Source: a virus. Taken from it: 27,613 bases of DNA. Shown here piece after piece: positions 4,151-20,046 of the stretch. Each line of letters opens with the position of its first letter. Position 1 is the first letter of the stretch. Location of the stretch: positions 1 to 27,613 of IMG/VR virus record IMGVR_UViG_3300025543_005823, one strand, 5' to 3'. The notes beneath the pieces are model-generated. The model saw nothing but the letters and a program-made list of their open reading frames with translations, ran no database searches and was not told where the DNA came from. A program made the position numbers and the translations under genes.

Positions 4151-5083
4151 TTATTCAAAATTAAAAAAGTGATCCATGTATGGGTTTAAATTTAATCTCC
4201 ATCCTAAATCATCATAAAAATTCTCTAGTTTATTTAATAATATAGATTCAAATATTTTATTTCTATCAGCGTATTTTTCCATAAACTCATTTACCTTATC
4301 AGGAATATCAAAGTCTAGAAAACCAAGTGCATCTACTTGGTATGGATTTGGTTTAAGGTAAACATATTTTATTTTATCTCCTTGAGCAATATATGAATGT
4401 TTTTTATTTAACCCCCAAAATCTTATTAAATCATTATATATTACAGCGGCTTTAGTATTTACAGGAGTGCCTTTTTTCATAACCGTAAACATTTCTCCTG
4501 CTTTAGGTTTACGTTCTATATAATAATTTAGTTTTTTAACACCTGTTGGGTTACCAAGTTCTGATAAAGATATTTCACCTTTTAATATTTTAGCTTTCAT
4601 ATCTTTAACTCGTTTATCTATTTCACTTTGTGTGGCACCTTTTAAAACATCAATAAGAGCTTCATGAAAAAATTTACCTAATACTTTAGGAAAGTTTGCT
4701 TTTTTAAACTCTAAACCTTTAACATCTAATTTTTCTTTTACAATACCTTCTTGTTTTGTAATCCATTGAGCATATCTTCTAGTTTTTCTAAAATATGCTG
4801 AGCGGATGACACATTCGGTTTTCATTTCTAGTCTATGTTTGGAAACATTAAAACATTCTTTAGCTAGAGTATTGTAATAAGAAGTAATATGGTCTTGATA
4901 GTATAAAGCTACTTTCTCTAATAATCCATCTTGTTGTTCTTCAGGAAATTCATCCCAGTTGGGATAGAGTTTTCTTAGTATAGGTTCAGAATGAAAGTAA
5001 TTACTGTCAGTATCTACATAACTACAGTAGTTTTCATCTCCTTCATCACATATCATCCATGGAACATCTTCTAGGTGTTTCAT
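4151..5083 (-). CDS. 43: DNA polymerase family B, C-terminal half (split gene): motif C, thumb, clamp-binding tail
   Basis: This 310-residue protein begins 24 residues before the catalytic motif C, YVDTDSNYF, with metal-binding aspartates D24 and D26. It contains the downstream KYVYLKPNPYQVDALGF segment expected in the palm/thumb. It ends NPYMDHFFNFE, similar in position and character to the clamp-binding tail of T4/RB69 polymerase (LFDMFDF). It has no exonuclease domain and no motifs A or B; those are in the gene at 5861-7639. The two together make 902 residues, almost exactly T4 gp43 (898). It follows the 92-residue ORF by one base and abuts the clamp gene. It must associate with the N-terminal half to be active. 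No intein sequence is seen at its start. Confidence 0.93.
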   Translation of the reverse strand: MKHLEDVPWMICDEGDENYCSYVDTDSNYFHSEPILRKLYPNWDEFPEEQQDGLLEKVALYYQDHITSYYNTLAKECFNVSKHRLEMKTECVIRSAYFRKTRRYAQWITKQEGIVKEKLDVKGLEFKKANFPKVLGKFFHEALIDVLKGATQSEIDKRVKDMKAKILKGEISLSELGNPTGVKKLNYYIERKPKAGEMFTVMKKGTPVNTKAAVIYNDLIRFWGLNKKHSYIAQGDKIKYVYLKPNPYQVDALGFLDFDIPDKVNEFMEKYADRNKIFESILLNKLENFYDDLGWRLNLNPYMDHFFNFE

Positions 5084-5084
5084 T

Positions 5085-5363
5085 TTATCTCAAATAATTT
5101 AAATCAATATCATCATCTTTAGTATTTAGAGGTGTAATAGCAGAGTCAACATTTCCTCTACTATTAAGGATTTGTTCTTCAACCATTATTTTATAATGGT
5201 AACCTCTAACTGTAAATTTACCTCCTTGTTTTAAAAGTTTACGAACTAATATTTCTTCATTATCTGTCCAAGATTTAGATAGTTGGATTAGTTGTTCTTT
5301 TGTTGCTAGTTCATTGTTGATGAATATTTGAACATTACCTCTAATAGATTGTTTACTTAACAT
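5085..5363 (-). CDS. Hypothetical protein, 92 residues, lying between the polymerase halves
   Basis: This small protein begins MLSKQSIRGNVQIFINNELA, with a central helical region and a GGKFTVRGYHYKIMVEEQIL strand pair, and an acidic tail (TKDDDIDLNYLR). I recognise no domain; it is too short for a homing endonuclease and has no HNH or GIY-YIG signature. Its start is preceded by an A-rich leader ending AAAAAGTT. It lies just after the terminator at 5383-5413 and one base before the polymerase C-terminal gene, so the two are probably transcribed together. It may be part of the insertion that split the polymerase, or may help the halves assemble; neither is shown. Confidence 0.75.
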   Translation of the reverse strand: MLSKQSIRGNVQIFINNELATKEQLIQLSKSWTDNEEILVRKLLKQGGKFTVRGYHYKIMVEEQILNSRGNVDSAITPLNTKDDDIDLNYLR

Positions 5364-5382
5364 AACTTTTTATTTTAAATAT

Positions 5383-5413
5383 AAAAAAAAGCCTGTCGAA
5401 AGACAAGCTTTTT
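5383..5413 (-). terminator. Intrinsic terminator after the tagged gene at 5428-5820
   Basis: On the minus strand, AAAAAGCTTGTC - TTTC - GACAGGCTTTTT forms a 12-pair stem with one G-U pair, followed by further U. It lies 15 bases beyond the stop of the tagged gene and is almost the same sequence as the terminator at 7660-7690. It separates the inserted gene from the polymerase C-terminal half. Confidence 0.85.
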
Positions 5414-5427
5414 ATATTAAGAGGTTA

Positions 5428-5820
5428 TTAGGAATTAATTTTTATCCCTTTTGAGCTGAGCCATTCTAAAAAAGGATTTAAAAATTTATCATCTACATCA
5501 AAAAAATCATATGTATGCACTTCTTTATCCTCCCAATCATATTCAGGATCTACAATTAACTCAACAAAAGTTATTTCTTGATCATTAAAATCAATTTGGT
5601 CAAAATAATAATTTGTTCCTGGGAGTTCTTCATTTGTGTCTAGTCTATTAATTTGGTCTTCATAGGGTTTTAGAAGCATTAATAACTTTACTTTTTCTAA
5701 CTCTTCAGTTGTTAAATCACCTTCATCCCATCCAAACATTTCTTCATTCAACTTAATTTTATATTCACCTTCTGTGATAATACCAGCCAACATTTGCATC
5801 CTATATAGCTCTTTTTTCAT
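5428..5820 (-). CDS. Tagged acidic protein inserted in the polymerase (MQxLAGIITEGEYK family)
   Basis: This 130-residue protein starts MKKELYRMQMLAGIITEGEY, the most divergent copy of a leader shared with the genes at 7714, 8470 and 8969. The rest is strongly acidic (EMFGWDEGDLTTEELEK, DPEYDWEDKEV) with aromatic residues and no membrane segment or known domain. The leader resembles the capsid-targeting sequence of T4 internal proteins: an amphipathic start followed by an I-x-E site (I-I-T-E before G), the pattern cut by the T4 gp21 prohead protease. A second site, K-L-N-E, follows. The gene has its own promoter-like element upstream (5839-5852) and its own terminator (5383-5413), and separates the two polymerase halves. 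The virion role is inference. Confidence 0.85.
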   Translation of the reverse strand: MKKELYRMQMLAGIITEGEYKIKLNEEMFGWDEGDLTTEELEKVKLLMLLKPYEDQINRLDTNEELPGTNYYFDQIDFNDQEITFVELIVDPEYDWEDKEVHTYDFFDVDDKFLNPFLEWLSSKGIKINS

Positions 5821-5838
5821 TTTTTTTTTATTAAGTTA

Positions 5839-5852
5839 TTTTATTATAAATA
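5839..5852 (-). promoter_or_regulatory. Conserved intergenic element, candidate late promoter (copy 1)
   Basis: The + strand reads TTTTATTATAAATA; the minus strand reads TATTTATAATAAAA, which contains TATAAT. The same 14 bases occur at 9457-9470 and 21919-21932. Here and at 9457 the match extends over the next bases toward the gene, about 25 of 26 positions. It lies about 20 bases upstream of the tagged gene's start. On the + strand it contains TATAAATA, the T4 late-promoter core, but pointing away from all genes, so direction is uncertain. Confidence 0.4.
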
Positions 5853-5860
5853 TTATATTT

Positions 5861-7639
5861 TTAATCTATAATTAATTCTTCTTCATCTCTCATAACCTTA
5901 TTCATATGTCTATTGGCTGCTAAAGCACTTTCCTGAATGATACGCCATCCTGATAAGGTGATAGCTTCGCTTAATATTGCTTTGTTCATTGCATATCTAA
6001 ATGAAGGTAATGCTGTTGCACCATATAGAGAGTTAAGTAGGATTTTCATTGTGTATTGTAGTAGGTGATATTTTTCTCCACCTTTTTCATCTCCTGCTTT
6101 ATAGCATTTTTTCATTTCACCTTTATAGTATACTCTTTCTTGAAACCACTTATCTAGAATAATTGAAAAGACAGATTTTCTATCAGTTCTAAAAAATGTT
6201 CCATTTGCAGATAAAGACCATTTATTATCTATAACTAAGTTAATAAGATTTTTTACTTTTATTTGAGTACGTTTACCCTTAATATTTTCTATAAGTAATT
6301 CCTCTTCAGGATCTTTATTTTTTAAATCATTTAAACCTAAATAGTTATGTCGATCAGGTTTAGGGGAGTTGGTTTCTGAGTCTAGATATGGTTTAAAATA
6401 AAGATCATCGGGTAAAATTTCATTTATAATTCTTCCCACAAATGTTTCTTTACCAATGTTTAAAGACATGATAATACAAGGATATAGTGAAGTTAAATCC
6501 TCATCAAACATGTTTTTATATATACCTGCTTTAGGACAAAATAAATAACCACCAGCATATCCTAGTTTTTTAACTGGTTTTCTTTCTTTTGATGGTGGGA
6601 CTATATTTTCAGATAAAAGATATGCAGAAATTGCGCCATCATGTATTACAGATGAACTATATACCTCACTATATCTTGTTTTTCCTTTATGAGCTAAGTT
6701 TCGTGTTAAAGTTAAATATTGAGATTTTTTATCCCATTCAACTAAAATTTCAACGTCTCGAAAGTTGTATTGAATAAACTTAAGTTTATCTTCTTCAAAT
6801 AATCTATCGAGTGAACCATTATATTCTATCTTATTTAACCCAGCATATTTTTCTCCCAATGAGTCTAATTTCCAACTTGGTTCATCCTCCCAACTATATT
6901 TTTTATGCATTCTCATATAGTCAAGACTTTCTACACCTACTATATCTATGGGTTGGTCAGTATTCCAAAATTCATCTGTCCCCCATTTTTTACGTTCAAT
7001 AACTTGTCCTAATGGAGATAGATATCCTGCCATTTCTGCTCCTAAAACATTACATATTCTATAATATAGGTAGGGAATATCGAAATAGTCACTGTTATAT
7101 CCTACAAGTATATCTGGGTCTATTTCTCTGATTCGTTCTAGAAATTTTGCTAGAAGTTCCTCTTCAGATACTACAGGGATAATTTCTTTGTTTTTAGCAA
7201 GATAGTGTTTAATAGTACGTTTAGGATCTAAAATTAAAATGTACCACATATCTACTTGTTTATCATACCAAGCAATAGAAGTTACTTTCTTTGGAGCAGA
7301 ACGGATATATTCAGGTGTAAGTTGGTCACCCATTTCAATCTCAATATCGAAAAATACCTCTCTATGAGTTGTTGAAGGTTCATCGTTTATACCATACTTT
7401 TCTATTAAGAATTTTTGATATGGTTTCATATCGTGAAAATGGAGTTTAGGATCATTTTTATCCCATTTTTTAACCTTAATTAAGGGTTCACCATTGATGC
7501 CCATATGAGTAGCATCATATTCATCACATTCTTTATAGACTTGGTTTACCCATTCTATTTGTTGATAACCCCTATCTTCCCACAAGTGTATTTTGAATTT
7601 ATTATAACTTAGCCGTTCGGCGTGTATTTTTTTGTACAT
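5861..7639 (-). CDS. 43: DNA polymerase family B, N-terminal half (split gene): exonuclease, palm motifs A and B
   Basis: This encodes 592 residues. The proofreading exonuclease is intact: Exo I FFDIEIE (D98, E100), Exo II YNSDYFDIPYL (D187) and Exo III YNFRDVEIL (D295). Polymerase motif A is DLTSLYP (D381) and motif B is KILLNSLYGA (K532, N536, Y539). The protein ends at residue 592, about 50 residues after motif B and before motif C, which is in the separate gene at 4151-5083. Both halves keep their active-site residues, so this is a split functional enzyme and not decay. T4-like phages of Aeromonas are known to have gene 43 split in two. The start is the only in-frame ATG near the A-rich leader ending AAAAAGGTT. 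Confidence 0.96.
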   Translation of the reverse strand: MYKKIHAERLSYNKFKIHLWEDRGYQQIEWVNQVYKECDEYDATHMGINGEPLIKVKKWDKNDPKLHFHDMKPYQKFLIEKYGINDEPSTTHREVFFDIEIEMGDQLTPEYIRSAPKKVTSIAWYDKQVDMWYILILDPKRTIKHYLAKNKEIIPVVSEEELLAKFLERIREIDPDILVGYNSDYFDIPYLYYRICNVLGAEMAGYLSPLGQVIERKKWGTDEFWNTDQPIDIVGVESLDYMRMHKKYSWEDEPSWKLDSLGEKYAGLNKIEYNGSLDRLFEEDKLKFIQYNFRDVEILVEWDKKSQYLTLTRNLAHKGKTRYSEVYSSSVIHDGAISAYLLSENIVPPSKERKPVKKLGYAGGYLFCPKAGIYKNMFDEDLTSLYPCIIMSLNIGKETFVGRIINEILPDDLYFKPYLDSETNSPKPDRHNYLGLNDLKNKDPEEELLIENIKGKRTQIKVKNLINLVIDNKWSLSANGTFFRTDRKSVFSIILDKWFQERVYYKGEMKKCYKAGDEKGGEKYHLLQYTMKILLNSLYGATALPSFRYAMNKAILSEAITLSGWRIIQESALAANRHMNKVMRDEEELIID

Positions 7640-7659
7640 ATAACCTTTTTAATAAAGAT

Positions 7660-7690
7660 AAAAAAAAACCTGTCAGAAGACAAGCTTTTT
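7660..7690 (-). terminator. Intrinsic terminator after the tagged gene at 7714-8403
   Basis: On the minus strand, AAAAAGCTTGTC - TTCT - GACAGGTTTTTT forms a 12-pair stem with two G-U pairs and a U tract. It is 24 bases past the stop of the tagged gene and just upstream of the polymerase N-terminal gene. The near-identity to 5383-5413 suggests both came with the same kind of cassette. Confidence 0.82.
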
Positions 7691-7713
7691 AATTTTTTAA
7701 ATAAAGATTTTAA

Positions 7714-8403
7714 TTATAGGTTTGTGTTTGATGCGTCTGTTGACTCTCCAAATCTTATTTTATTTTGAATTTCATCGCCTTTTTTGTATTTAGACGCACC
7801 CATAAGACCTGTAGCTGCACCTGCAATTAAAGCAGCTAAACCTGCAACTGGGTTTATTACGCTAAGAGCTCCTAGTGCTAAGCCTCCAATTGAAGTTGTT
7901 AATCCACCTATTCCCAATATTTGGCCTATTCTCTTCATCCCTTGAGCTTTGTTATAATTCGATGAGTTTCTAGAACGATTTCTTTCTCTTTCTCTTCTCT
8001 CCCTCTCTTCTTCTCTATCCGAAATGGCCTTCTTTTTCCAGTATGGCTTTAGATTAGAGTCTCCGTATTCAGAACTATGGTCCCAATCAGTATGGCCAAC
8101 GGCTTCATTTATTTCATCTGCAACTCCAGATTTCATTAAAGCCATTTCAACTTTTTTAGAATCTGCTAAATCTTCAATTGATAAATTGAGCTTTTTGGCT
8201 AATCCAGGCAATGATTTTTCAGCCTCTTTTCTTGAAGATGGGTCTGATTCAATCTTTTTTGCAGCCTCATCCTCCACCTTTGCTTTAACAGTTTCCTCTT
8301 TTTCATTTAAAGCATCTTCTCTTAATGCTTTTAATTTTTCCTTATACTCACCTTCAGTGATAATACCAGCGAGTTTTTGCATGTATAAAAATTCTTTGTT
8401 CAT
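7714..8403 (-). CDS. Tagged protein with charged middle and glycine/alanine-rich hydrophobic end
   Basis: This 229-residue protein starts with the shared leader MNKEFLYMQKLAGIITEGEY, followed by K-A-L-R-E, a possible second L-x-E cleavage site. Residues about 25-100 are lysine/glutamate-rich and helical (KVEDEAAKKIESDPSSRKE). Residues about 130-145 are arginine/glutamate repeats (DREEERERRERERNRSRN). Residues about 160-205 are a hydrophobic Gly/Ala/Leu hairpin (GIGGLTTSIGGLALGALSV, then PVAGLAALIAGAATGLMGA) that could insert in a membrane. A terminator follows. A processed internal virion protein that reaches the host membrane on injection would fit the layout, but this is inference. No known domain was recognised. 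Confidence 0.85.
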   Translation of the reverse strand: MNKEFLYMQKLAGIITEGEYKEKLKALREDALNEKEETVKAKVEDEAAKKIESDPSSRKEAEKSLPGLAKKLNLSIEDLADSKKVEMALMKSGVADEINEAVGHTDWDHSSEYGDSNLKPYWKKKAISDREEERERRERERNRSRNSSNYNKAQGMKRIGQILGIGGLTTSIGGLALGALSVINPVAGLAALIAGAATGLMGASKYKKGDEIQNKIRFGESTDASNTNL

Positions 8404-8469
8404 TTTTTTTTATTAAAGTTGTCTATGTTTGTTTATTTTTAATTTTAACTTTGGATTTACTTAAACCAC

Positions 8470-8958
8470 TTACTTTGTTTTATACAGTTTGATTTGGAAT
8501 CCATTTTCTTCTAAAAATGAATTAATTTTTTGAATAAATTCACTGTTATCAAGTTCAACTTCGTTATCAAGTTCAACTTCAATAGAAGGTTTAAGTTTAG
8601 CTATATTTTTTCCATTAACTAAACTAACAGCATCTAAAAGTTCATCAACATCAGATCCTACCATTTTAAATTTATTTTCATTTATTTTATACAGTTTGAT
8701 TTGGAATCCATTTTCTTCTAAAAATGAATTAATTTTTTGAATAAATTCACTGTTATCAAATTCACTGTTATCAAATTCAACTTCAATAGAAGGTTTAAGT
8801 TTAGCTATATTTTTTCCATTAACTAAACTAACAGCATCTAAAAGTTCATCAACATCAGATCCTACCATTTCAAATTTATTTTCATTTAGTTGGGATTTGT
8901 ACTCACTTTCTGTGATGATACCAGCGAGTTTTTGCATGTATAAAAATTCTTTGTTCAT
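8470..8958 (-). CDS. Tagged protein with a tandem duplicated domain
   Basis: I place the start at the ATG at 8958, which begins MNKEFLYMQKLAGIITESEY, because the longer frame to 9018 would overlap the previous gene and precede the shared leader. The 162-residue protein consists of the leader plus two nearly identical units of about 67-68 residues, each from NKF(E/K)MVGSDVDELLDAVS to EENGFQIKLYK. The units differ mainly at a short acidic repeat: EVEFDNSEFDNSEF in the first and EVELDNEVELDNSEF in the second. The unit looks like a small alpha/beta domain (helix, strand, helix, strand); I do not recognise it. The near-identity means the duplication is recent. Confidence 0.82.
   Translation of the reverse strand: MNKEFLYMQKLAGIITESEYKSQLNENKFEMVGSDVDELLDAVSLVNGKNIAKLKPSIEVEFDNSEFDNSEFIQKINSFLEENGFQIKLYKINENKFKMVGSDVDELLDAVSLVNGKNIAKLKPSIEVELDNEVELDNSEFIQKINSFLEENGFQIKLYKTK
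8478..8888 (-). repeat. Direct tandem duplication inside the tagged gene
   Basis: Positions 8478-8684 (207 bases) and 8685-8888 (204 bases) are nearly identical head-to-tail copies. They differ mostly at one site where each copy has its own in-frame micro-repeat: two 18-base units at 8545-8580 in one copy, and two 15-base units at 8749-8778 in the other. Reading frame is kept throughout. Confidence 0.93.
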
Positions 8959-8968
8959 TTTTTTTTTA

Positions 8969-9439
8969 TTATTTTTTACGATATAGTTTCTTATAATTCC
9001 AAAGATATGCAGCAGCACCAGCTGCTAATGCCGCTATAATTAAGGCTGGATTGGCGTGTCCACTACCAACAATTTTCATACCAGCACCAGCTAATCCACT
9101 ACTAGCAGAAAGCATTGTAAACAAAGCGGATGTTGCTTTTGATATTTGGTCTCCACTAATTTCATTCAATGTCAATGCATCAGATACTTTTTTCCTATTT
9201 GCCATATCCTTCAAAGATAAACCAGTATCATCTTGTAAACTTTTAAGGGCTTTCATTGCTAATTTTTTCAAATCTTCATTTTTATCTAATTCTGATTTTA
9301 TTTTATCTTCTATTTTATCAAGCTTGTTATCATCTACATCTAAACCTTCTGCTTCTCTTACAGTTTGTAATTTTTCTTTGTACTCACCTTCAGTGATAAT
9401 ACCAGCGAGTTTTTGCATGTGTAAAAATTCCTTGTTCAT
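8969..9439 (-). CDS. Tagged protein with C-terminal membrane segment
   Basis: This 156-residue protein starts with the shared leader MNKEFLHMQKLAGIITEGEY. Residues about 30-110 are charged and helical (KLDKIEDKIKSELDKNEDL, KKLAMKALKSLQDDTGLSL). Residues about 112-147 are Ala/Gly-rich and hydrophobic, ending ALIIAALAAGAAAYLWNYKK, a plausible transmembrane helix with a basic end. The architecture, leader then charged helices then Gly/Ala-rich hydrophobic end, matches the gene at 7714-8403, so the two are probably diverged paralogues. A conserved promoter-like element (9457-9470) lies just upstream. No known domain; a virion or injected-protein role is inferred from the leader. Confidence 0.85.
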   Translation of the reverse strand: MNKEFLHMQKLAGIITEGEYKEKLQTVREAEGLDVDDNKLDKIEDKIKSELDKNEDLKKLAMKALKSLQDDTGLSLKDMANRKKVSDALTLNEISGDQISKATSALFTMLSASSGLAGAGMKIVGSGHANPALIIAALAAGAAAYLWNYKKLYRKK

Positions 9440-9456: not shown

Positions 9457-9470
9457 TTTTATTATAAATA
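9457..9470 (-). promoter_or_regulatory. Conserved intergenic element, candidate late promoter (copy 2)
   Basis: The + strand reads TTTTATTATAAATA, identical to 5839-5852 and 21919-21932, and lies about 20 bases upstream of the tagged gene starting at 9439. It sits in the short gap after the MazG-like gene, a natural place for a new transcript. The direction is inferred from the genes; TSS mapping would settle it. Confidence 0.4.
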
Positions 9471-10222: not shown

Positions 10223-10918
10223 TTAGATATTATGTCCTCCGTTGTTAATTTTTAGGCTATCAAAAAATTCTTTACGTGCATTATTTGTATCGTCTCTAAA
10301 TGCTCCTGATGCTTTAGTAGTAACCATTGCTGCTCCTTGATGTTTAACACCTCTACAAGATACACAATTATGAGTACCTACAATAGTAACAATTGCACCT
10401 AAATTACCTTCAGTAATTTTATCTACAGCATTATGAATTGCTGATGTAAGTTGCTCTTGAATAGCACCTCTACGACCAAATAATTCTACAATGCGATTTA
10501 ATTTAGACAAACCAATTACTTGACCTTTAATTCCTGCAATATATCCAATATGAACTACTCCTCCAATTGTTTGATGATGATGAGAACACATTGAAGTAAG
10601 TGGAATATTTCTTTCAATAATTATACCATCATATCCATCTGAAGGGAATGAAGTGATTGGGGACATTGCATTATAACGGCCTGCCCAGAGATCATTTACA
10701 TAGGCTTTAGCTACACGACGAGGTGTTTCCATAGAGTTTGGGTCATTTCTCCAATCACATTTTAGAGCATCTAAAAATTTTCCATATGCTTCTTCTGCTT
10801 CATCAATCATTGATAATTTTTCTTTATCGGTAAGTGGGAAACCAGGTGCTACTCCATTTGCAAATCCTGTTTGCACTACTTCTAAATTTTCATGTAGTTT
10901 TCTACGTTTATTTTCCAT
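10223..10918 (-). CDS. folE: GTP cyclohydrolase I
   Basis: This 231-residue protein converts GTP to dihydroneopterin triphosphate, the first step of preQ0 (7-cyano-7-deazaguanine) synthesis and of folate. The zinc and catalytic residues are visible: C111 and H113-H115 in TSMCSHHHQTIGG, and C185 in GTHNCVSCRGVKHQG. GQVIGLSKLNRIVELFGRR is the usual conserved core, and NSMETPRRVAKAYV is the N-terminal family signature. With queD, queE, queC and a DpdA-like gene upstream in the same direction, its product most likely feeds DNA-base modification. It abuts the AT-hook gene with no spacer. Length is normal, and no key residue is missing. Confidence 0.96.
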   Translation of the reverse strand: MENKRRKLHENLEVVQTGFANGVAPGFPLTDKEKLSMIDEAEEAYGKFLDALKCDWRNDPNSMETPRRVAKAYVNDLWAGRYNAMSPITSFPSDGYDGIIIERNIPLTSMCSHHHQTIGGVVHIGYIAGIKGQVIGLSKLNRIVELFGRRGAIQEQLTSAIHNAVDKITEGNLGAIVTIVGTHNCVSCRGVKHQGAAMVTTKASGAFRDDTNNARKEFFDSLKINNGGHNI

Positions 10919-11191
10919 CTATTTTATTTTATATTGTTTTTTATATACCTCAATAAAAGATTTTCCTATACCAATATCAAGGATTTCATAATTATTTGGA
11001 ATAAGAGGAATATGCTTACGGTTAGTAATGATAGCATCTATCTCATAATCTGTAAAAGTGCTTAAATAATATTTTTTACCTGTGGGTTTTTTATAAACAA
11101 CACATATAACAGTTTTTTCACTTTTAGGACGTCCTGTTCTTACGAATGAGGGGTTTGATGTGATTTTTTTAGGAGGTCTTCCTCTTCCCAT
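10919..11191 (-). CDS. Small protein with two AT-hook-like motifs
   Basis: This 90-residue protein begins MGRGRPPKK and has a second basic motif, RTGRPKSEK, at residues 18-26. Two GRP cores close together are typical of AT-hook proteins that bind the minor groove of AT-rich DNA. The rest (TVICVVYKKPTGKKYYLSTF, then EILDIGIGKSFIEVYKKQY) is a small beta-rich domain I do not recognise. The leader before ATG is A-rich, ending AATAAAAGTT. It abuts folE. It could be a DNA-associated partner of the base-modification enzymes, but only the motif and position suggest this. Confidence 0.78.
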   Translation of the reverse strand: MGRGRPPKKITSNPSFVRTGRPKSEKTVICVVYKKPTGKKYYLSTFTDYEIDAIITNRKHIPLIPNNYEILDIGIGKSFIEVYKKQYKIK

Positions 11192-11239
11192 AACTTTTAT
11201 TTTTATTGTAATATATGAAGGAGATTTTGTTCCTCCAAA

Positions 11240-11485
11240 CTATCTGTTATATAAATCTCTAACTTCGTGAGCAGATTTTACACCAACTAATCGACCCTTT
11301 TCTATTCCATTTTCAATTAAAATTATGGTTGGAACAGAACGTACATTATATTGTATAGCGGTTTGTGAAGAAATCTCTACATCAATAAAAGTAATTGATA
11401 TTTCTGATTGTAAAGATTCTATTACAGGTTTAAATTGTTTACAGGGTTGACACCATGGTGCACTAAAATATAGTAATTGTTTCAT
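11240..11485 (-). CDS. Small thioredoxin-like protein
   Basis: This 81-residue thioredoxin fold has the active site WCQPC (C12, C15) and the cis-proline loop SVPT (P52). It is shorter than cellular thioredoxin (about 105) and close in size to phage thioredoxin/glutaredoxins such as T4 NrdC (87). It probably supplies electrons to the ribonucleotide reductase encoded at 22018-24708, whose large subunit keeps the C-terminal cysteine pair, though that is about 10 kb away. It could also protect the iron-sulphur enzyme QueE, the neighbour upstream. The active site and fold are clear; the partner is inferred. Confidence 0.93.
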   Translation of the reverse strand: MKQLLYFSAPWCQPCKQFKPVIESLQSEISITFIDVEISSQTAIQYNVRSVPTIILIENGIEKGRLVGVKSAHEVRDLYNR

Positions 11486-11541
11486 TTTGTTATAATATAA
11501 TTAATTTGGTAATCTCCGAATGTTGTTGTGACTGTATACAT
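11482..11541 (-). CDS. Possible 19-residue ORF between queE and the thioredoxin gene
   Basis: A frame of 19 codons (MYTVTTTFGDYQINYIITK) starts one base after the queE stop and ends in a TGA that overlaps the thioredoxin ATG (ATGA). The exact fit to the gap suggests translational coupling. It may be a tiny gene or merely a coupling frame; at this length chance is a real possibility. Confidence 0.3.
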   Translation of the reverse strand: MYTVTTTFGDYQINYIITK

Positions 11542-11542
11542 A

Positions 11543-12313
11543 TTAAACTCCTCTTTTAGTATCAAATGCAATGATGTGGTCTCTACCAGTCATATTATAC
11601 CCTTTTTCAGCACACATTTCAAATACAATAGGATACATTTTAATCAACTCCTCTCGAGTATCGCCTGCTGGCATGATATATGTTTTATCTTTTGGAATAC
11701 CTAATGATAAACGGAATGCTTCAATCTGACCTAGATTTTTTTCAGTACCATCCCAAACTGGTTTATAGTGATAGTCTGTGTGAGATTCTATCATTTGTCT
11801 GCAGGTATGAGGGTTTAATCTAAATTTATTATGTTGGTCGATTATTTTTTGGTCCACTACTTTTCCTTGAGGTGTAGCAACCCCTAATTTAGGAACGCTA
11901 TTACTAAACTTAGGGCTAAGCGAGATGAGTCCTATAGGATAATCGGTTTCAATAAAATGTGAACCTTCTGTCTCAATCGTGATAAGAATGTCTCGCTCAT
12001 TTGCAAAGTGTGTTAGTTCGTTTACTAATGCTGGATGCATTGTGGGACTTCCTCCTGTTAACATCATCTCTTTAATGTGTGGATTCTCGTCATAGATCTT
12101 AATAATGTCTTTAAACGTGAATGTACCCTTTTCTGGGTGGATACTTGTATACCAGCTGTCACACCAACCTCCTTCACCAAAGTAGCATCGATGAGTGCAT
12201 CCAGTAGTTCTAACTGCTATAGTTGGTCTACCGAATCTAGAACCTTCACTTTGAACACATCTATATAATTCAACGATAGGTAATGTTTTATTATAATCTT
12301 CTATTCTTTTCAT
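11543..12313 (-). CDS. queE: 7-carboxy-7-deazaguanine synthase (radical SAM)
   Basis: This radical SAM enzyme converts 6-carboxytetrahydropterin to 7-carboxy-7-deazaguanine. I start it at the ATG at 12313 (MKRIEDYNK, 256 residues) because an A-rich leader precedes it; the longer frame to 12340 overlaps the previous gene more. The sequence shows the QueE opening (ELYRCVQSEGSRFGRPTIAVR), cluster cysteines C39, C43 and C51, and the LTGGSPTMHPAL and ITIETEGS strands. The cysteine pattern is CX3CX7C, with YFGEGGW between the second and third cysteines, longer than the common CX3CX2C. Other QueE proteins are known to vary here. Genomic context with queD, queC and folE makes the call firm. Confidence 0.93.
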   Translation of the reverse strand: MKRIEDYNKTLPIVELYRCVQSEGSRFGRPTIAVRTTGCTHRCYFGEGGWCDSWYTSIHPEKGTFTFKDIIKIYDENPHIKEMMLTGGSPTMHPALVNELTHFANERDILITIETEGSHFIETDYPIGLISLSPKFSNSVPKLGVATPQGKVVDQKIIDQHNKFRLNPHTCRQMIESHTDYHYKPVWDGTEKNLGQIEAFRLSLGIPKDKTYIMPAGDTREELIKMYPIVFEMCAEKGYNMTGRDHIIAFDTKRGV

Positions 12314-12318
12314 TATTG

Positions 12319-12513
12319 TTATTGTTTTAAGTTTGAACATATTAAATATGCTTCTTCTAATGTGATTCCCTCAACTTCAGGTCTAAATCCCACCATATTG
12401 CTGCCTTCAACTCTTAAATTATCTTTAGAACTTTCAAACCAACAGTCTGGGTTGTAGTGGCACCACCATCCATTTTCTAGTAGATATTGATGTTTTTTAG
12501 CTTTACTCTTCAT
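12319..12513 (-). CDS. Small tryptophan- and cysteine-containing protein, 64 residues
   Basis: I choose the ATG at 12513 (MKSKAKKHQYLL). It overlaps the end of queD by 11 bases, while the longer frame to 12540 overlaps more. The protein has a basic start, NGWWCHYNPDCWFE in the middle, then a helix (ITLEEAYLICSNLKQ). The close W/C/H residues could bind a metal, but one motif is weak evidence. It lies within the queD-queE operon. No known family recognised. Confidence 0.65.
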   Translation of the reverse strand: MKSKAKKHQYLLENGWWCHYNPDCWFESSKDNLRVEGSNMVGFRPEVEGITLEEAYLICSNLKQ

Positions 12514-12979
12514 ATATACTAGAATTATTATCGTTCTCAAAACATTCTACTTTGATACATTTGCATCTACCCGCATCTGTTTTAGATAGAACTTCATTAA
12601 ATTTATCATATACTAATTTTGCACATGATTCTGCTCCCATTTTATCCATAATACGTAAAGCACAAATACCTTCCATTGCCATAGTTTCAAATAAATCTAA
12701 ATATGGATCATCTTTTTCAATTAATAATGTGTGATCCCACATATAGTTCATCCAAGATTTTAAACCATTACCTTTAGGTGCGTCTTTGAAGCCACCATAA
12801 TCAACGATCCAATTCATATCATCTAATTGGTTTTCCTCTAATGGTTCAATGGATGAAAACCATACTTTAAATTTTAAAGCATAACCATGCAATAATTCAC
12901 AGTGTGAATGTGAGGCTTTATGTTGTCTAAGCGCTACGGAATAATTTTCAAATAGTTTTGTGCTAATATATCTACTCAT
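12503..12979 (-). CDS. queD: 6-carboxytetrahydropterin synthase (QueD/PTPS family)
   Basis: This 158-residue protein of the 6-pyruvoyl-tetrahydropterin synthase fold makes 6-carboxytetrahydropterin from dihydroneopterin triphosphate. Visible markers are HSHCELLHGYALKFKVWF (C27, H31), the MNWIVDYGGFK loop, WDHTLLIEKDDP and a C-terminal CIKVECFE. E. coli QueD has AAH near the start and LHGH; here the segments are VALRQHKASHSH and LHGY. So the zinc histidines appear to be supplied differently, as in a divergent branch of the family. The stop of queC is one base upstream of its start region, so the genes form one operon. Function is firm from context and fold; ligand details are inference. Confidence 0.9.
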   Translation of the reverse strand: MSRYISTKLFENYSVALRQHKASHSHCELLHGYALKFKVWFSSIEPLEENQLDDMNWIVDYGGFKDAPKGNGLKSWMNYMWDHTLLIEKDDPYLDLFETMAMEGICALRIMDKMGAESCAKLVYDKFNEVLSKTDAGRCKCIKVECFENDNNSSIYEE

Positions 12980-12980
12980 A

Positions 12981-13853
12981 TTATTGATTATATGTTTCTA
13001 AAACTTTTGTTACTTCATTTACTACATATTCCCATGTTACCGGACCTGTATTATCTGCATAACGTACAGGATCAGGGCGACCTAATTTAATAAAGGCTTC
13101 TACACGTTCAACTGATGATGCTGATTTATAGTCTGAATACCAATTGTCACCTGAAGATGAGATAATTTGGATTGGTTTATAACTTGTATTTGTACGTTTG
13201 TATACTTCATTAAAATCTAATCCTAATTCTTTACATAGCATTTCTCCATCTTGTAAAATGGTAAATTTATTACCTTCAAGATATGGGGTAAAATATCCTA
13301 CACTATCAGCATCCCAATTACCCATTCTAAAAGCATAATCATCTGCATCTCTAAATTCAGCTCTACAGTCAGGATAAATGCTATGATCACCTGCATGAAT
13401 ACCCATTGCAATGTCACAATTTTCACCTGTTTTATTTGCTATTGAAAGTGCAACAGCTTGAGTAATAGAAGCAAATATTTTGTTTCTGTTTGGGACAACA
13501 GTTGCTTTCATATTATCCTCAGCATAATGTCCTTCAGGTACATCATTTCCTCCTGTTACTAAAGCTGAATCAAGTAGATCTACTAATCCATTTAGTTGGA
13601 TTTGACGATAAGTAACTTTAGGAAAATGATGTAAAATAACTTCTGAGGTTTCAGATTTATATTTTGTTTCATCAGCATTATCATTTAAGTAATCTATCAA
13701 TGATTGAGCTCTCTCTAGCTCTACTCTGTGCTTTTGTCCATAATCAAATGAAATAGCTGTTACACTATCATACTCTTTTAGACATCTAAGCAATAATGTG
13801 CTTGAGTCCATTCCCCCACTAAGTGAAATCACTACATGTTTTTTATTTTTCAT
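12981..13853 (-). CDS. queC: 7-cyano-7-deazaguanine synthase-like protein lacking the usual zinc cysteines
   Basis: This 290-residue protein has the PP-loop ATP site SLSGGMDSS (residues 10-18), ISFDYGQKHRVELERA and VVPNRNKIFASI, all standard for QueC, which turns 7-carboxy-7-deazaguanine into preQ0. The C-terminal region that normally holds four zinc cysteines (TxSCY, then CGxCxxCxER) reads TNTSYKP at 221-227 and SASSVER at 244-250. The expected cysteines are replaced by Ser or other residues, and the loop is about seven residues longer. So the enzyme may be zinc-independent or altered in substrate. It overlaps the gene at 13850-14116 by four bases. Overall length and context still favour a preQ0 role. 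Confidence 0.9.
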   Translation of the reverse strand: MKNKKHVVISLSGGMDSSTLLLRCLKEYDSVTAISFDYGQKHRVELERAQSLIDYLNDNADETKYKSETSEVILHHFPKVTYRQIQLNGLVDLLDSALVTGGNDVPEGHYAEDNMKATVVPNRNKIFASITQAVALSIANKTGENCDIAMGIHAGDHSIYPDCRAEFRDADDYAFRMGNWDADSVGYFTPYLEGNKFTILQDGEMLCKELGLDFNEVYKRTNTSYKPIQIISSSGDNWYSDYKSASSVERVEAFIKLGRPDPVRYADNTGPVTWEYVVNEVTKVLETYNQ

Positions 13854-17756: not shown

Positions 17757-18353
17757 TTACTTATTTTTTTCTGTGGCATACTTAACACCCATAATAGTAC
17801 CTATAATACTAAAAGAGTTAGTCAGAAGTATACCAAACAAATTTGACCAAGTAGACTCCAATATAGGATTCTCTCTTCCAGCAACCAAGGTAAAGGCAAA
17901 AAGAAATGTAGTAATTACACCTACTCCTAAAATTACCCACAAAGCTACAGTAACAATTTTTCCTATAAGTTCAAATTGGGTTTTTTTCTGCATTAATTCT
18001 AAATCTTCTAATGCTTTATCTTTACCTTTTTCAGCTTCTTGTCTTAATTTATCAGCTTCCCATTCAGCGTTTTTAGCTTCTTCTAAGGCTGATTGGAGCT
18101 CTTCCATAAGAGAATCATTTTCTTCTTGTTTAGCAATTAATTCTTTATTTTGTTGCTGGACTTGTTTAGTTACTTCTAGTCGTTTTTTACGGGTGGAGAC
18201 ATCTTTTTCTTTACAGAATTTAAGGTATTCCTCGAATTCTTTATCGCCTTTAGGAGCTTTAAGAAGTTTAAGGAAATTACCCTCTACATAGATTTTTTTT
18301 GTTTTAGCAACCTCTAGTAGAACATTTCTGGTATGTTCTGTTACTTCAACCAT
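17757..18353 (-). CDS. Coiled-coil protein with two C-terminal membrane segments
   Basis: This 198-residue protein has a soluble N-terminal 50 residues, a long charged helical region at about 55-125 (KQVQQQNKELIAKQEENDSL, then ALEEAKNAEWEADKLRQEA) that reads as coiled coil, and two hydrophobic segments near 130-153 (IVTVALWVILGVGVITTFLF) and 165-188 (LFGILLTNSFSIIGTIMGV). Its ATG overlaps the response-regulator stop by one base (TAATG), so the three genes 20046-17757 are translated in series. This close link suggests it works with the kinase and receiver, perhaps as the output or a membrane sensor; the sequence alone does not prove it. Confidence 0.82.
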   Translation of the reverse strand: MVEVTEHTRNVLLEVAKTKKIYVEGNFLKLLKAPKGDKEFEEYLKFCKEKDVSTRKKRLEVTKQVQQQNKELIAKQEENDSLMEELQSALEEAKNAEWEADKLRQEAEKGKDKALEDLELMQKKTQFELIGKIVTVALWVILGVGVITTFLFAFTLVAGRENPILESTWSNLFGILLTNSFSIIGTIMGVKYATEKNK

Positions 18354-18799
18354 TACCTATAAACTTTAAATGGGTTTGTTTTGTTTTTGTACCCTTCATA
18401 ATCATTTCTAAATTCTTCTAAACGAGGTTCGATATCATCTGATTTAATAATCCAGAATTGGGCTCCTGCTGCTTTAGCTTTTTCAATTTCTTGATTATCA
18501 TCCGAAGAAGAAATGATACCAATCACACACCCATTACCATATTCATGGTTAATTTTATCTACCATCTCAATTCCATTAAATGAAGAACCAATGATATTTA
18601 AATCAACAAACACACATTCAGGGCGTTCATGATTTACATCATCAGGGAACCATTCTTTAAATTTTTTATCAGCTTCATCTGATGAATTAAGGGCTTCTAA
18701 AGAAAGAGTGATGTCCAAGATGCTACATGCATCTTCAAACACTAAGTGAAATAGATCTTCGTCATCTATTAACATAATAGAGTTTATCATTGTGCTCAT
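18353..18799 (-). CDS. Receiver-only response regulator
   Basis: This 148-residue single-domain protein has the response-regulator receiver fold: acidic pair D12-D13 (MLIDDED), phosphoacceptor D66 (CVFVDLNII), the conserved Ser/Thr position in GIISSSDD (about S97), and K119 in WIIKSD. There is no DNA-binding or enzymatic output domain, so it probably acts by binding a partner protein, in the manner of CheY or Spo0F. The start overlaps the kinase stop by four bases (ATGA). A second ATG three codons in (MINSIML) is also possible. With the kinase at 18796-20046 it is a complete phosphorelay pair. Phage-encoded pairs of this kind are unusual. Confidence 0.92.
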   Translation of the reverse strand: MSTMINSIMLIDDEDLFHLVFEDACSILDITLSLEALNSSDEADKKFKEWFPDDVNHERPECVFVDLNIIGSSFNGIEMVDKINHEYGNGCVIGIISSSDDNQEIEKAKAAGAQFWIIKSDDIEPRLEEFRNDYEGYKNKTNPFKVYR

Positions 18800-20046
18800 T
18801 TAATTTTTATTTTTAATTTTGTTCCTGGGTTTGTTTTTTCTGCTATTATCTCGAAACCATGTTCTTTTAGTATGGCTATACATATGTTTAAACCTAATCC
18901 GGAGCCACTTTCTTTTTGGTCTTTTTTACGGGTATACGGTTTAGATAATTCGGTAAATTCTGATTGAGACATTCCTCTCCCATTATCTTGAACAACTAAA
19001 GTGTCACTATTTTCCATATAAATCATAACTGATTTAGTAGAACTATCATTATATTTTAACCCATTGCGGATTAAATTATCAATTGCAGTACAAAATAGAG
19101 GTTCATTAACCTCCACAATAGGGAGTTCATCTATTAAGACTTGTTTAGTATAGGAAGTAGATGATAAATAATTTTTTAAAATTTCTCCTAAATTATGTTC
19201 TTTTTTTTCTAATTGAACTTGTTCTTTAACAAGATTAGTAAATTCTTTTACTCCAGCATAAACCTTTTGTGTATGCTTTAATCCTTCTTCTAACATTCTA
19301 AGAGGAGCATCAATTTTTAATTCTTTAATTTGATCCTCTGATAATCTTCTTTTTAGAGAATTTAAACCTCTAGGCATATAAGTATTAATACCTGAATGCA
19401 TATCATGTCTTAGGATTTTTGCGGCGTGTTCTAAGTATGAGTTCTTTTGATTAACTATTTCTTCGGCTTCATGTTGAGCTGTAACATCTGTAGCAACTTT
19501 TAGTACAGTGCTATATTTACCGTTTTCATCTTTAATAGGAGTATAATTACCAAACAACCATTTTTTAGAACCATCTTTAGCTACTCGTTCAAATTCACCC
19601 GTAATACTTTCACCACGTCTTAATGTTTCCCAAAATTCAACATATTCTTTACTTTTTGCGTATTCAGGAGTAACCATTGAACTATGAGGTTTTTTAACCA
19701 TATTTTTTTCTTGACAACTCATCATATTACAAAAATTATCATTTGCTGTAATAATATAACCATCTACAGTTAGGGTTACAACTAAATTTGATTTACTAAT
19801 TCCTTCAAGTTGAGAGTTAATCTGGGATTCTCTAAGCTTAAATATTTTAAGAAATTCACCGATTACCATAAAGAACGGAGGCATAAATCCTATAATACAC
19901 ACATACCCAAATTGGGCTAAAAATATAGAATTTTCACATATCCCAAATACAATGCAAGTTTGTACTGCAAAAAAGATAAACATAATAGCCCCTGCTAAAG
20001 CAAGAGCTATTTTAGATCTTATTGATATACCTTCTAAAGCTGACAT
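18796..20046 (-). CDS. Membrane sensor histidine kinase with PAS domain
   Basis: This encodes 416 residues. Two membrane segments lie near residues 12-34 and 42-64 with almost no loop between them, so input is probably in or at the membrane. A PAS domain follows at about 80-190, including TLTVDGYIITANDNFC and the GEFERVAKDGSKKWLFG segment with a PAC-like end (STVLKVATDVTAQHEAEE). The phospho-acceptor is H214 in AAKILRHDMHSGI. The ATPase domain has the N box DNLIRNGLKYND (N324, N328), G1 DNGRGMS (354-360) and G2 GSGLGLNI (381-388). All catalytic boxes are present. It precedes a receiver gene by an ATGA overlap and follows lysis-type genes, so it may sense the host membrane or infection state. 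The signal and role are unknown. Confidence 0.93.
   Translation of the reverse strand: MSALEGISIRSKIALALAGAIMFIFFAVQTCIVFGICENSIFLAQFGYVCIIGFMPPFFMVIGEFLKIFKLRESQINSQLEGISKSNLVVTLTVDGYIITANDNFCNMMSCQEKNMVKKPHSSMVTPEYAKSKEYVEFWETLRRGESITGEFERVAKDGSKKWLFGNYTPIKDENGKYSTVLKVATDVTAQHEAEEIVNQKNSYLEHAAKILRHDMHSGINTYMPRGLNSLKRRLSEDQIKELKIDAPLRMLEEGLKHTQKVYAGVKEFTNLVKEQVQLEKKEHNLGEILKNYLSSTSYTKQVLIDELPIVEVNEPLFCTAIDNLIRNGLKYNDSSTKSVMIYMENSDTLVVQDNGRGMSQSEFTELSKPYTRKKDQKESGSGLGLNICIAILKEHGFEIIAEKTNPGTKLKIKIK

Follow-up and report, generated by a model that had tools for sequence, protein, structure and literature searches.

The capsid-targeting sequence (CTS) of phage T4 is carried by the internal proteins IPI, IPII, IPIII and Alt (Mullaney and Black 1996; PMC9026906, PMC9958956). 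It is a 10-residue leader in which residues 4 and 7 govern targeting and residues 8 and 10 processing (PMC9026906), and the selection of proteins into the T4 core is still called mysterious (PMC9958956). In phiKZ-like phages such as SPN3US and phiKZ, inner-body or ejection proteins bear propeptides that are processed by the head protease (PMC5694885, PMC10052503). Here we describe a putative counterpart in IMG/VR virus record IMGVR_UViG_3300025543_005823, whose 27,613 nucleotides (nt) constitute the window analyzed. Four minus-strand genes of this window, designated A to D, begin with a common 21-residue N-terminus, M(N/K)KE-x-x-x-MQ-x-LAGIITE(G/S)EYK, in the translations of its open reading frames (ORFs). 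This tag, referred to as leader 1, is very probably a capsid-targeting leader of a T4-type phage of Bacteroidetes, which would dock by mimicking the prohead scaffold, be cut by the head protease and be synthesized late.

Like the T4 CTS, leader 1 is a short N-terminal leader (10–20 residues) on otherwise unrelated, predicted late proteins, it has an I/L-x-E prohead-protease site at its end, and its genes are scattered outside the head operon. Because it has no sequence similarity to MKTYQEFIAEA or MKTFKEF, it is filed as working like the CTS and not as a member of the T4 CTS family. Further differences from the T4 leader are that it copies the scaffold C-terminus, sits at either protein end, alternates with two other leaders and accompanies 82 families of bodies in the sample. 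The phiKZ-like propeptides resemble it in being head-protease-processed and in standing on packaged proteins (processing and packaging being predicted from sequence in the present case), and SPN3US gp53 and gp54 likewise share N-termini while their bodies have diverged. However, most SPN3US propeptides exceed 100 residues, their site is A-x-E, and a gp22 counterpart is unconfirmed in SPN3US.

The core of leader 1, E-x-x-R-M-Q-K-L-A-G-I, is a copy of the C-terminal peptide of the prohead scaffold. The reference for this comparison is Flavobacterium phage immuto, a T4-type isolate of 160 kb, the sole match of a short-peptide tblastn search of isolate phages and kin to the window through one 0.9-kb stretch over queC with 80% identity. 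The immuto gene order comprises the portal, three small genes, the S77 protease gp070, gp069, gp067 and the gp23-type capsid protein gp066. The presumed scaffold, gp067, is acidic, occupies the position of T4 gp22 relative to the S77 protease and the gp23-type capsid protein, and ends in ...SEQVSRWQKLAGIIK. T4 gp22 differs in ending with VYAKVASRF, where the motif is absent, and its N-terminus, MLKEQLIAEAQ, resembles the IPIII leader. In viral contigs, 577 relatives of gp067 were matched, and nearly all of about 100 scaffolds end in R(M/W/F)(Q/K)KLAGI(I)(K). Among 15,505 ORF ends, the C-terminal motif is confined to three families and two single proteins; the families are those of the scaffold (103), a protein of ~330 amino acids (aa) (22) and a 77-aa protein (20). 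A T4-type head with S77 protease, scaffold and gp23-type capsid protein was found through immuto and through records with PF03420, which is present in 11 of 28 tag-bearing records, including six of the eight of at least 98 kb. Since leader 1 copies the scaffold C-terminal peptide, a tagged protein should dock at the site where the scaffold end docks, and would in this way be built into the prohead core.

The distribution of the tag was established in the viral collection with a degenerate DNA pattern for MQ-x-L-A-G-x-x-T-E-[GSR], which matched at least 119 stretches, used alongside a second pattern, (L)RMQ[KM]LAG[IL], that leaves I-T-E free. Among the matches listed, the deduplicated occurrences are N-terminal in 171 cases, C-terminal in 57 and internal in 3; 163 of the N-tagged proteins are non-redundant, with a median length of about 157 aa, and 155 tagged bodies group into 82 families, of which 69 are single-member. 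The first-pass annotation had suggested looking for the tag beside diverse bodies elsewhere, and the viral contigs contain it in just this setting. In the gathered ORFs, whose loci were partly fetched by motif, the core motif lies near the N-terminal methionine 191 times and at the C-terminus 136 times, against 2 occurrences in residue-shuffled copies. A position matrix derived from N-terminal tags only, applied to 729,325 positions in 8,707 ORFs of 14 tag-bearing sequences, gave 39 matches above 8 bits, of which 33 were N-terminal, 6 C-terminal and none internal; four of the C-terminal matches are scaffolds and two are other C-tagged proteins. The leader strings themselves are absent from the open-licence papers searched. 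One long ORF (L327, record G014, about 67.9–68.0 kb) holds a tandem pair of leader-1 copies ~33 residues apart.

The end of the tag has the features of a prohead-protease site. Glutamate occupies the last position of I-T-E in 156 of the 163 tags, followed by serine in 81 and glycine in 67, a result that the first search pattern forces in part and the second not at all. The N-termini of the prohead proteases show LLTES, MLTES, VLTES, ILRES or similar, and the capsid proteins have QIVSE or QIVAE where the mature part begins; the tag's G-I-I-T-E-S is thus nearly the protease's own G-L-L-T-E-S. In T4, the corresponding sequences are FLTE/A at residue 65 of gp23 and STITEA, that is, S-T-I-T-E/A, in ipI (the slash marks the cut). 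In 146 of 147 C-tagged proteins, [ILVM]-x-E occurs among the 18 residues that precede the motif, against a background of 58% of positions in these E-rich proteins. The motif is therefore outermost, with the predicted cutting site between motif and body, and the C-terminal tag is, as far as sequence tells, the mirror image of the N-terminal arrangement, its site facing the body. An AlphaFold2 (AF2) model of a relative of the gene B product places a leader helix at residues 3–11, a loop at 12–16 and a second helix at 17–26; in this model, the two short leader helices flanking the I-I-T loop are consistent with an exposed cutting site. By identity of the sites, the head protease would cut after I-T-E; in many copies a second cut at a neighboring L-x-E would follow, and the body would be released within the head. 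The first-pass annotation had noted such a second site near most tags, and it is found as LNE in genes D, C and B, with an additional LRE in gene C and V-R-E instead in gene A.

A late-promoter-like element accompanies many tagged genes. It was defined as TAT(T/G)TATAA(A)TA at most 50 nt upstream, and structural or lysis genes were taken as the late class. The element precedes 53 of 159 tagged genes and 25 of 180 late genes, compared with 1 of 186 early or metabolic genes and 63 of 1391 ORFs overall. The window has exactly three strict copies (9470, 5852 and 21932), the last of which lies before a small membrane-protein gene adjoining lysis genes. In record G002, three tagged genes have the element in front of them, as do a head-operon gene, the sheath-like gene and a putative tape-measure gene. 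Tagged genes with the element would consequently yield proteins made alongside the virion; late synthesis, as predicted from these promoters, is what one expects of proteins packed into the virion but would be unusual in an ordinary early effector. A general translation signal was considered and rejected as the main reading of the element, which separates late from early genes.

The features of the window that bear on this reading are collected in Table 1.

Table 1. Tagged genes, leaders and late-promoter-like elements of the window.
Feature	Position	Strand	Description
Tagged gene A, 156 aa	8969..9439	-	Leader 1, acidic helical body, C-terminal hydrophobic segment; first in three-gene tagged run
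Leader 1 of gene A, MNKEFLHMQKLAGIITEGEYK	9377..9439	-	Predicted cut after E17, codon 9389-9391
Tagged gene B, 162 aa	8470..8958	-	Leader 1, then two copies of a small alpha/beta domain
Leader 1 of gene B, MNKEFLYMQKLAGIITESEYK	8896..8958	-	Predicted cut after E17, codon 8908-8910
Tagged gene C, 229 aa	7714..8403	-	Leader 1, charged region, Gly/Ala-rich hydrophobic C-terminal region
Leader 1 of gene C, MNKEFLYMQKLAGIITEGEYK	8341..8403	-	Predicted cut after E17, codon 8353-8355
Tagged gene D, 130 aa	5428..5820	-	Leader 1 and acidic body
Leader 1 of gene D, MKKELYRMQMLAGIITEGEYK	5758..5820	-	Predicted cut after E17, codon 5770-5772
Late-promoter-like element TATTTATAATA	9460..9470	-	Ahead of tagged run 9439-7714
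Late-promoter-like element TATTTATAATA	5842..5852	-	Ahead of tagged gene D
Gene with leader 3, MDNFDLRKYLTEN, 76 aa	3143..3373	-	Second, interchangeable leader type in these phages

All four tagged genes named at first pass are present on the minus strand. In gene B, the ATG at 8958 taken as start puts the tag at the N-terminus; the mechanical ORF from the GTG at 9018 overlaps its neighbor. The initial description of the four bodies as unrelated stood except for genes C and A, which are paralogues (44% over 103 aa, leader included). The duplicated alpha/beta body attributed to gene B was borne out as an internal duplication of a domain that is present as a single copy in other phages, and a fold search with this type of domain (AF2 pLDDT 86.6) gave a weak PII/CutA/ferredoxin-like likeness with a query TM below 0.5. 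For the bodies of genes D (5428) and C (7714), the relatives found were only near-identical contigs or tag-region matches. The hydrophobic C-terminal part of gene C shows a weak SLATT likeness (NF033634, E=0.007, far under the cut-off).

A scan of 142 tagged proteins against Pfam, PHROGs and PADLOC yielded nothing beyond weak or isolated matches and a DUF6576 match in five proteins, one of which is L115 5138-5608. We take DUF6576 to be a short segment known from Bacteroidetes proteins, and its presence in tagged proteins possibly reflects host mimicry. An Alt-like ADP-ribosyltransferase or other known injected effector was sought in the same scan, and none was present among the bodies. This near-absence of recognized domains is also a trait of the T4 internal proteins.

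The surroundings of the tagged genes include several other features, all on the minus strand. A family-B DNA polymerase (4151-7639) is split into ORFs of 592 aa and 310 aa, with a 92-aa ORF and gene D between them. A queuosine-type cluster (10223-13853) of FolE and QueC, plus QueD and QueE by inspection, resembles that of immuto and suggests 7-deazaguanine DNA modification. A PAS/HATPase histidine kinase with hydrophobic N-terminal segments (18353-20046) adjoins a response-regulator gene (just below the Pfam cut-off), the two forming a two-component-like pair in a phage.

Leader 1 is not the only such leader. Two more were found after the fact by regular expression. Leader 2, M..s.LRQIIKEEIxKVL(N/K)E, is N-terminal in 39 cases and elsewhere in 13, on diverse bodies (L297, L298, L309, L024, L091, L115 and others), while leader 3, M(D/E)NFDLKKYLxEN, with the head-operon form MENNFDIHKWQAKFLKE, is N-terminal in 66 and elsewhere in 4, and heads unrelated bodies in and outside the head operon (including L129-L190, in the protease-scaffold interval). 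By eye only, leader 3 (MDNFDLKKYLAEN) is closer to the T4 leader than leader 1 is, with an aromatic residue followed by I/L-A-E. These leaders replace one another on related bodies. The L016 body stands under leader 1, its L045 homologue (75% identity) under leader 3 and its relatives in L298, L091 and L115 under leader 2, and the alignment of L016-type bodies starts at LNE/LKE, the predicted cutting site; similarly, L076 and L309 have a common body under leaders 1 and 2, respectively.

The 77-aa protein and the passenger domains show further architectures. In 22 stand-alone genes, usually directly after an N-tagged gene, the 77-aa protein bears the C-terminal motif; in two ORFs where it is fused to its N-tagged partner, the N-terminal motif is kept and the C-terminal one is gone. 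Passenger domains inside some tagged proteins occur alone behind a leader elsewhere (L017/L020; L110/L228/L120), often right after L-N-E, and [LI]-x-E lies near 33 of 66 junction ends, compared with a 21% background, although the junctions are not independent. Mosaic tagged proteins, in which a single leader is combined with several passenger domains parted by L-N-E, were observed in L012, L117, L032, L020, L228, L120, L092 and L102, as if packaged as polyproteins, to judge by their sequences. On balance, we lean towards a modular address code whose interchangeable leaders number at least three. Leader 1 among them would copy the scaffold docking peptide and be usable at the C-terminus as well, with its site facing the body; some cargo would consist of polyproteins, and the tag would allow hundreds of unknown virion-delivered proteins to be listed from sequence alone.

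The capsid-targeting and protease-site interpretation proposed at first pass is accordingly supported by the scaffold C-terminus identity, the protease's LLTE/S, the late promoters, the tagged genes in the head operon and the leader swaps at L-x-E. The least improbable alternative is one that we regard as possible but unlikely: tagged proteins would be core or scaffold accessories that enter under the direction of the leader, serve assembly only and are then degraded or expelled, with no delivery to a host. T4 gp67 and gp68 are core proteins of this kind, and many tagged bodies have several L/I-x-E sites and would be cut up. Furthermore, leader-bearing proteins occupy a slot in the head operon, as 30 of 77 protease-scaffold intervals hold one or two leader-bearing ORFs (leader 3 in 29, leader 1 in G013), and G021 likewise has a leader-1 gene between the protease and scaffold genes. 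Yet the bodies in this slot are of many different kinds and are swapped within it, one of them standing under leader 1 in G013, under leader 3 in L182 and L160, and again under leader 3 at another location in G015, with homology here too beginning at the L-x-E site. This turnover, together with the 82 families among 155 bodies, fits accessory cargo better than essential parts, and many tagged genes lie outside the head operon, like T4 ipI-III.

It is considerably less probable that the leader is bound not by the core but by an assembly helper, for which phage GroEL/GroES, Hsp20 and the membrane site of head assembly are examples. The window does encode GroEL, GroES and Hsp20, and the N-terminus of the T4 capsid protein directs that protein to GroEL, according to the title of a paper cited in PMC10052503. 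However, the motif also ends the scaffold, and a chaperone signal would have no need of a body-side protease site at either terminus. Still more improbable is a mobile expression cassette, consisting of a late promoter, a start codon and the first 20 codons, spread by recombination and encoding a peptide with no address role. The DNA of three window genes gives some occasion for this idea, since their first 66 nt are 88–94% identical, whereas the DNA beyond, where the bodies differ, is 36–46% identical (position by position, ungapped), and upstream elements are shared. Against it, the upstream 40 nt of the window's tagged genes are just 50–65% identical, M-Q-x-L-A-G-I-x-T-E is conserved at the protein level across distant phages, and the peptide recurs at C-termini, where promoter and start codon play no part.

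Cellular genomes were searched because the first-pass annotation had held that tags in cellular proteins would speak against it. In 84,980 species genomes, one tag pattern had no match and a broader one had three exact matches, two of them due to chance and the third on a virus-like contig of 31.6 kb and 28% GC (L375, JAJTEO010000009.1) in a Fluviicola genome bin, with two adjacent leader-1 genes. That the tag is a host-compartment signal or cellular domain unrelated to the capsid, as the hydrophobic C-terminal segments of genes C and A might suggest, is scarcely credible given this single real match against at least 119 viral stretches and given the same peptide on the scaffold.

Several observations weigh against the capsid-targeting reading. 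Loci were partly fetched by tag patterns, so that the counts do not represent random sampling, nor are related sequences independent of one another. The scaffold was assigned by position and composition, and PHROGs gave no scaffold match; a by-eye comparison of tag variants with the scaffold variant of the same genome revealed no obvious tracking. The strict late element stands before only a third of tagged genes, some of which lie inside operons, and ten ORFs with the 77-aa domain show no recognized motif. The tagged bodies match no known effector family in the domain scan above, the window, as a fragment, lacks head genes, and virion proteomics was not found in the literature, a 2020 Flavobacterium phage paper containing none.

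If leader 1 does direct proteins into the capsid, the freed body might be delivered with the DNA into the next host; by analogy with T4 IPI and Alt, such delivery is a plausible further step. None of the open-licence papers searched describes scaffold mimicry, placement of a leader at either terminus, several leaders that replace one another or a system on this scale.

A leader that imitates the terminal peptide of the scaffold is an answer to core selection that sequence suggests and that can be tested over 12 residues. The tag also makes it easy to search an abundant and little-studied group of phages for proteins that would be packaged in the virion and probably injected. The proteins it retrieves, almost all of which have no known domains, are candidate inhibitors of host defense and candidate takeover factors. 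In practical terms, the short tag may serve to load foreign proteins into a Flavobacterium phage.

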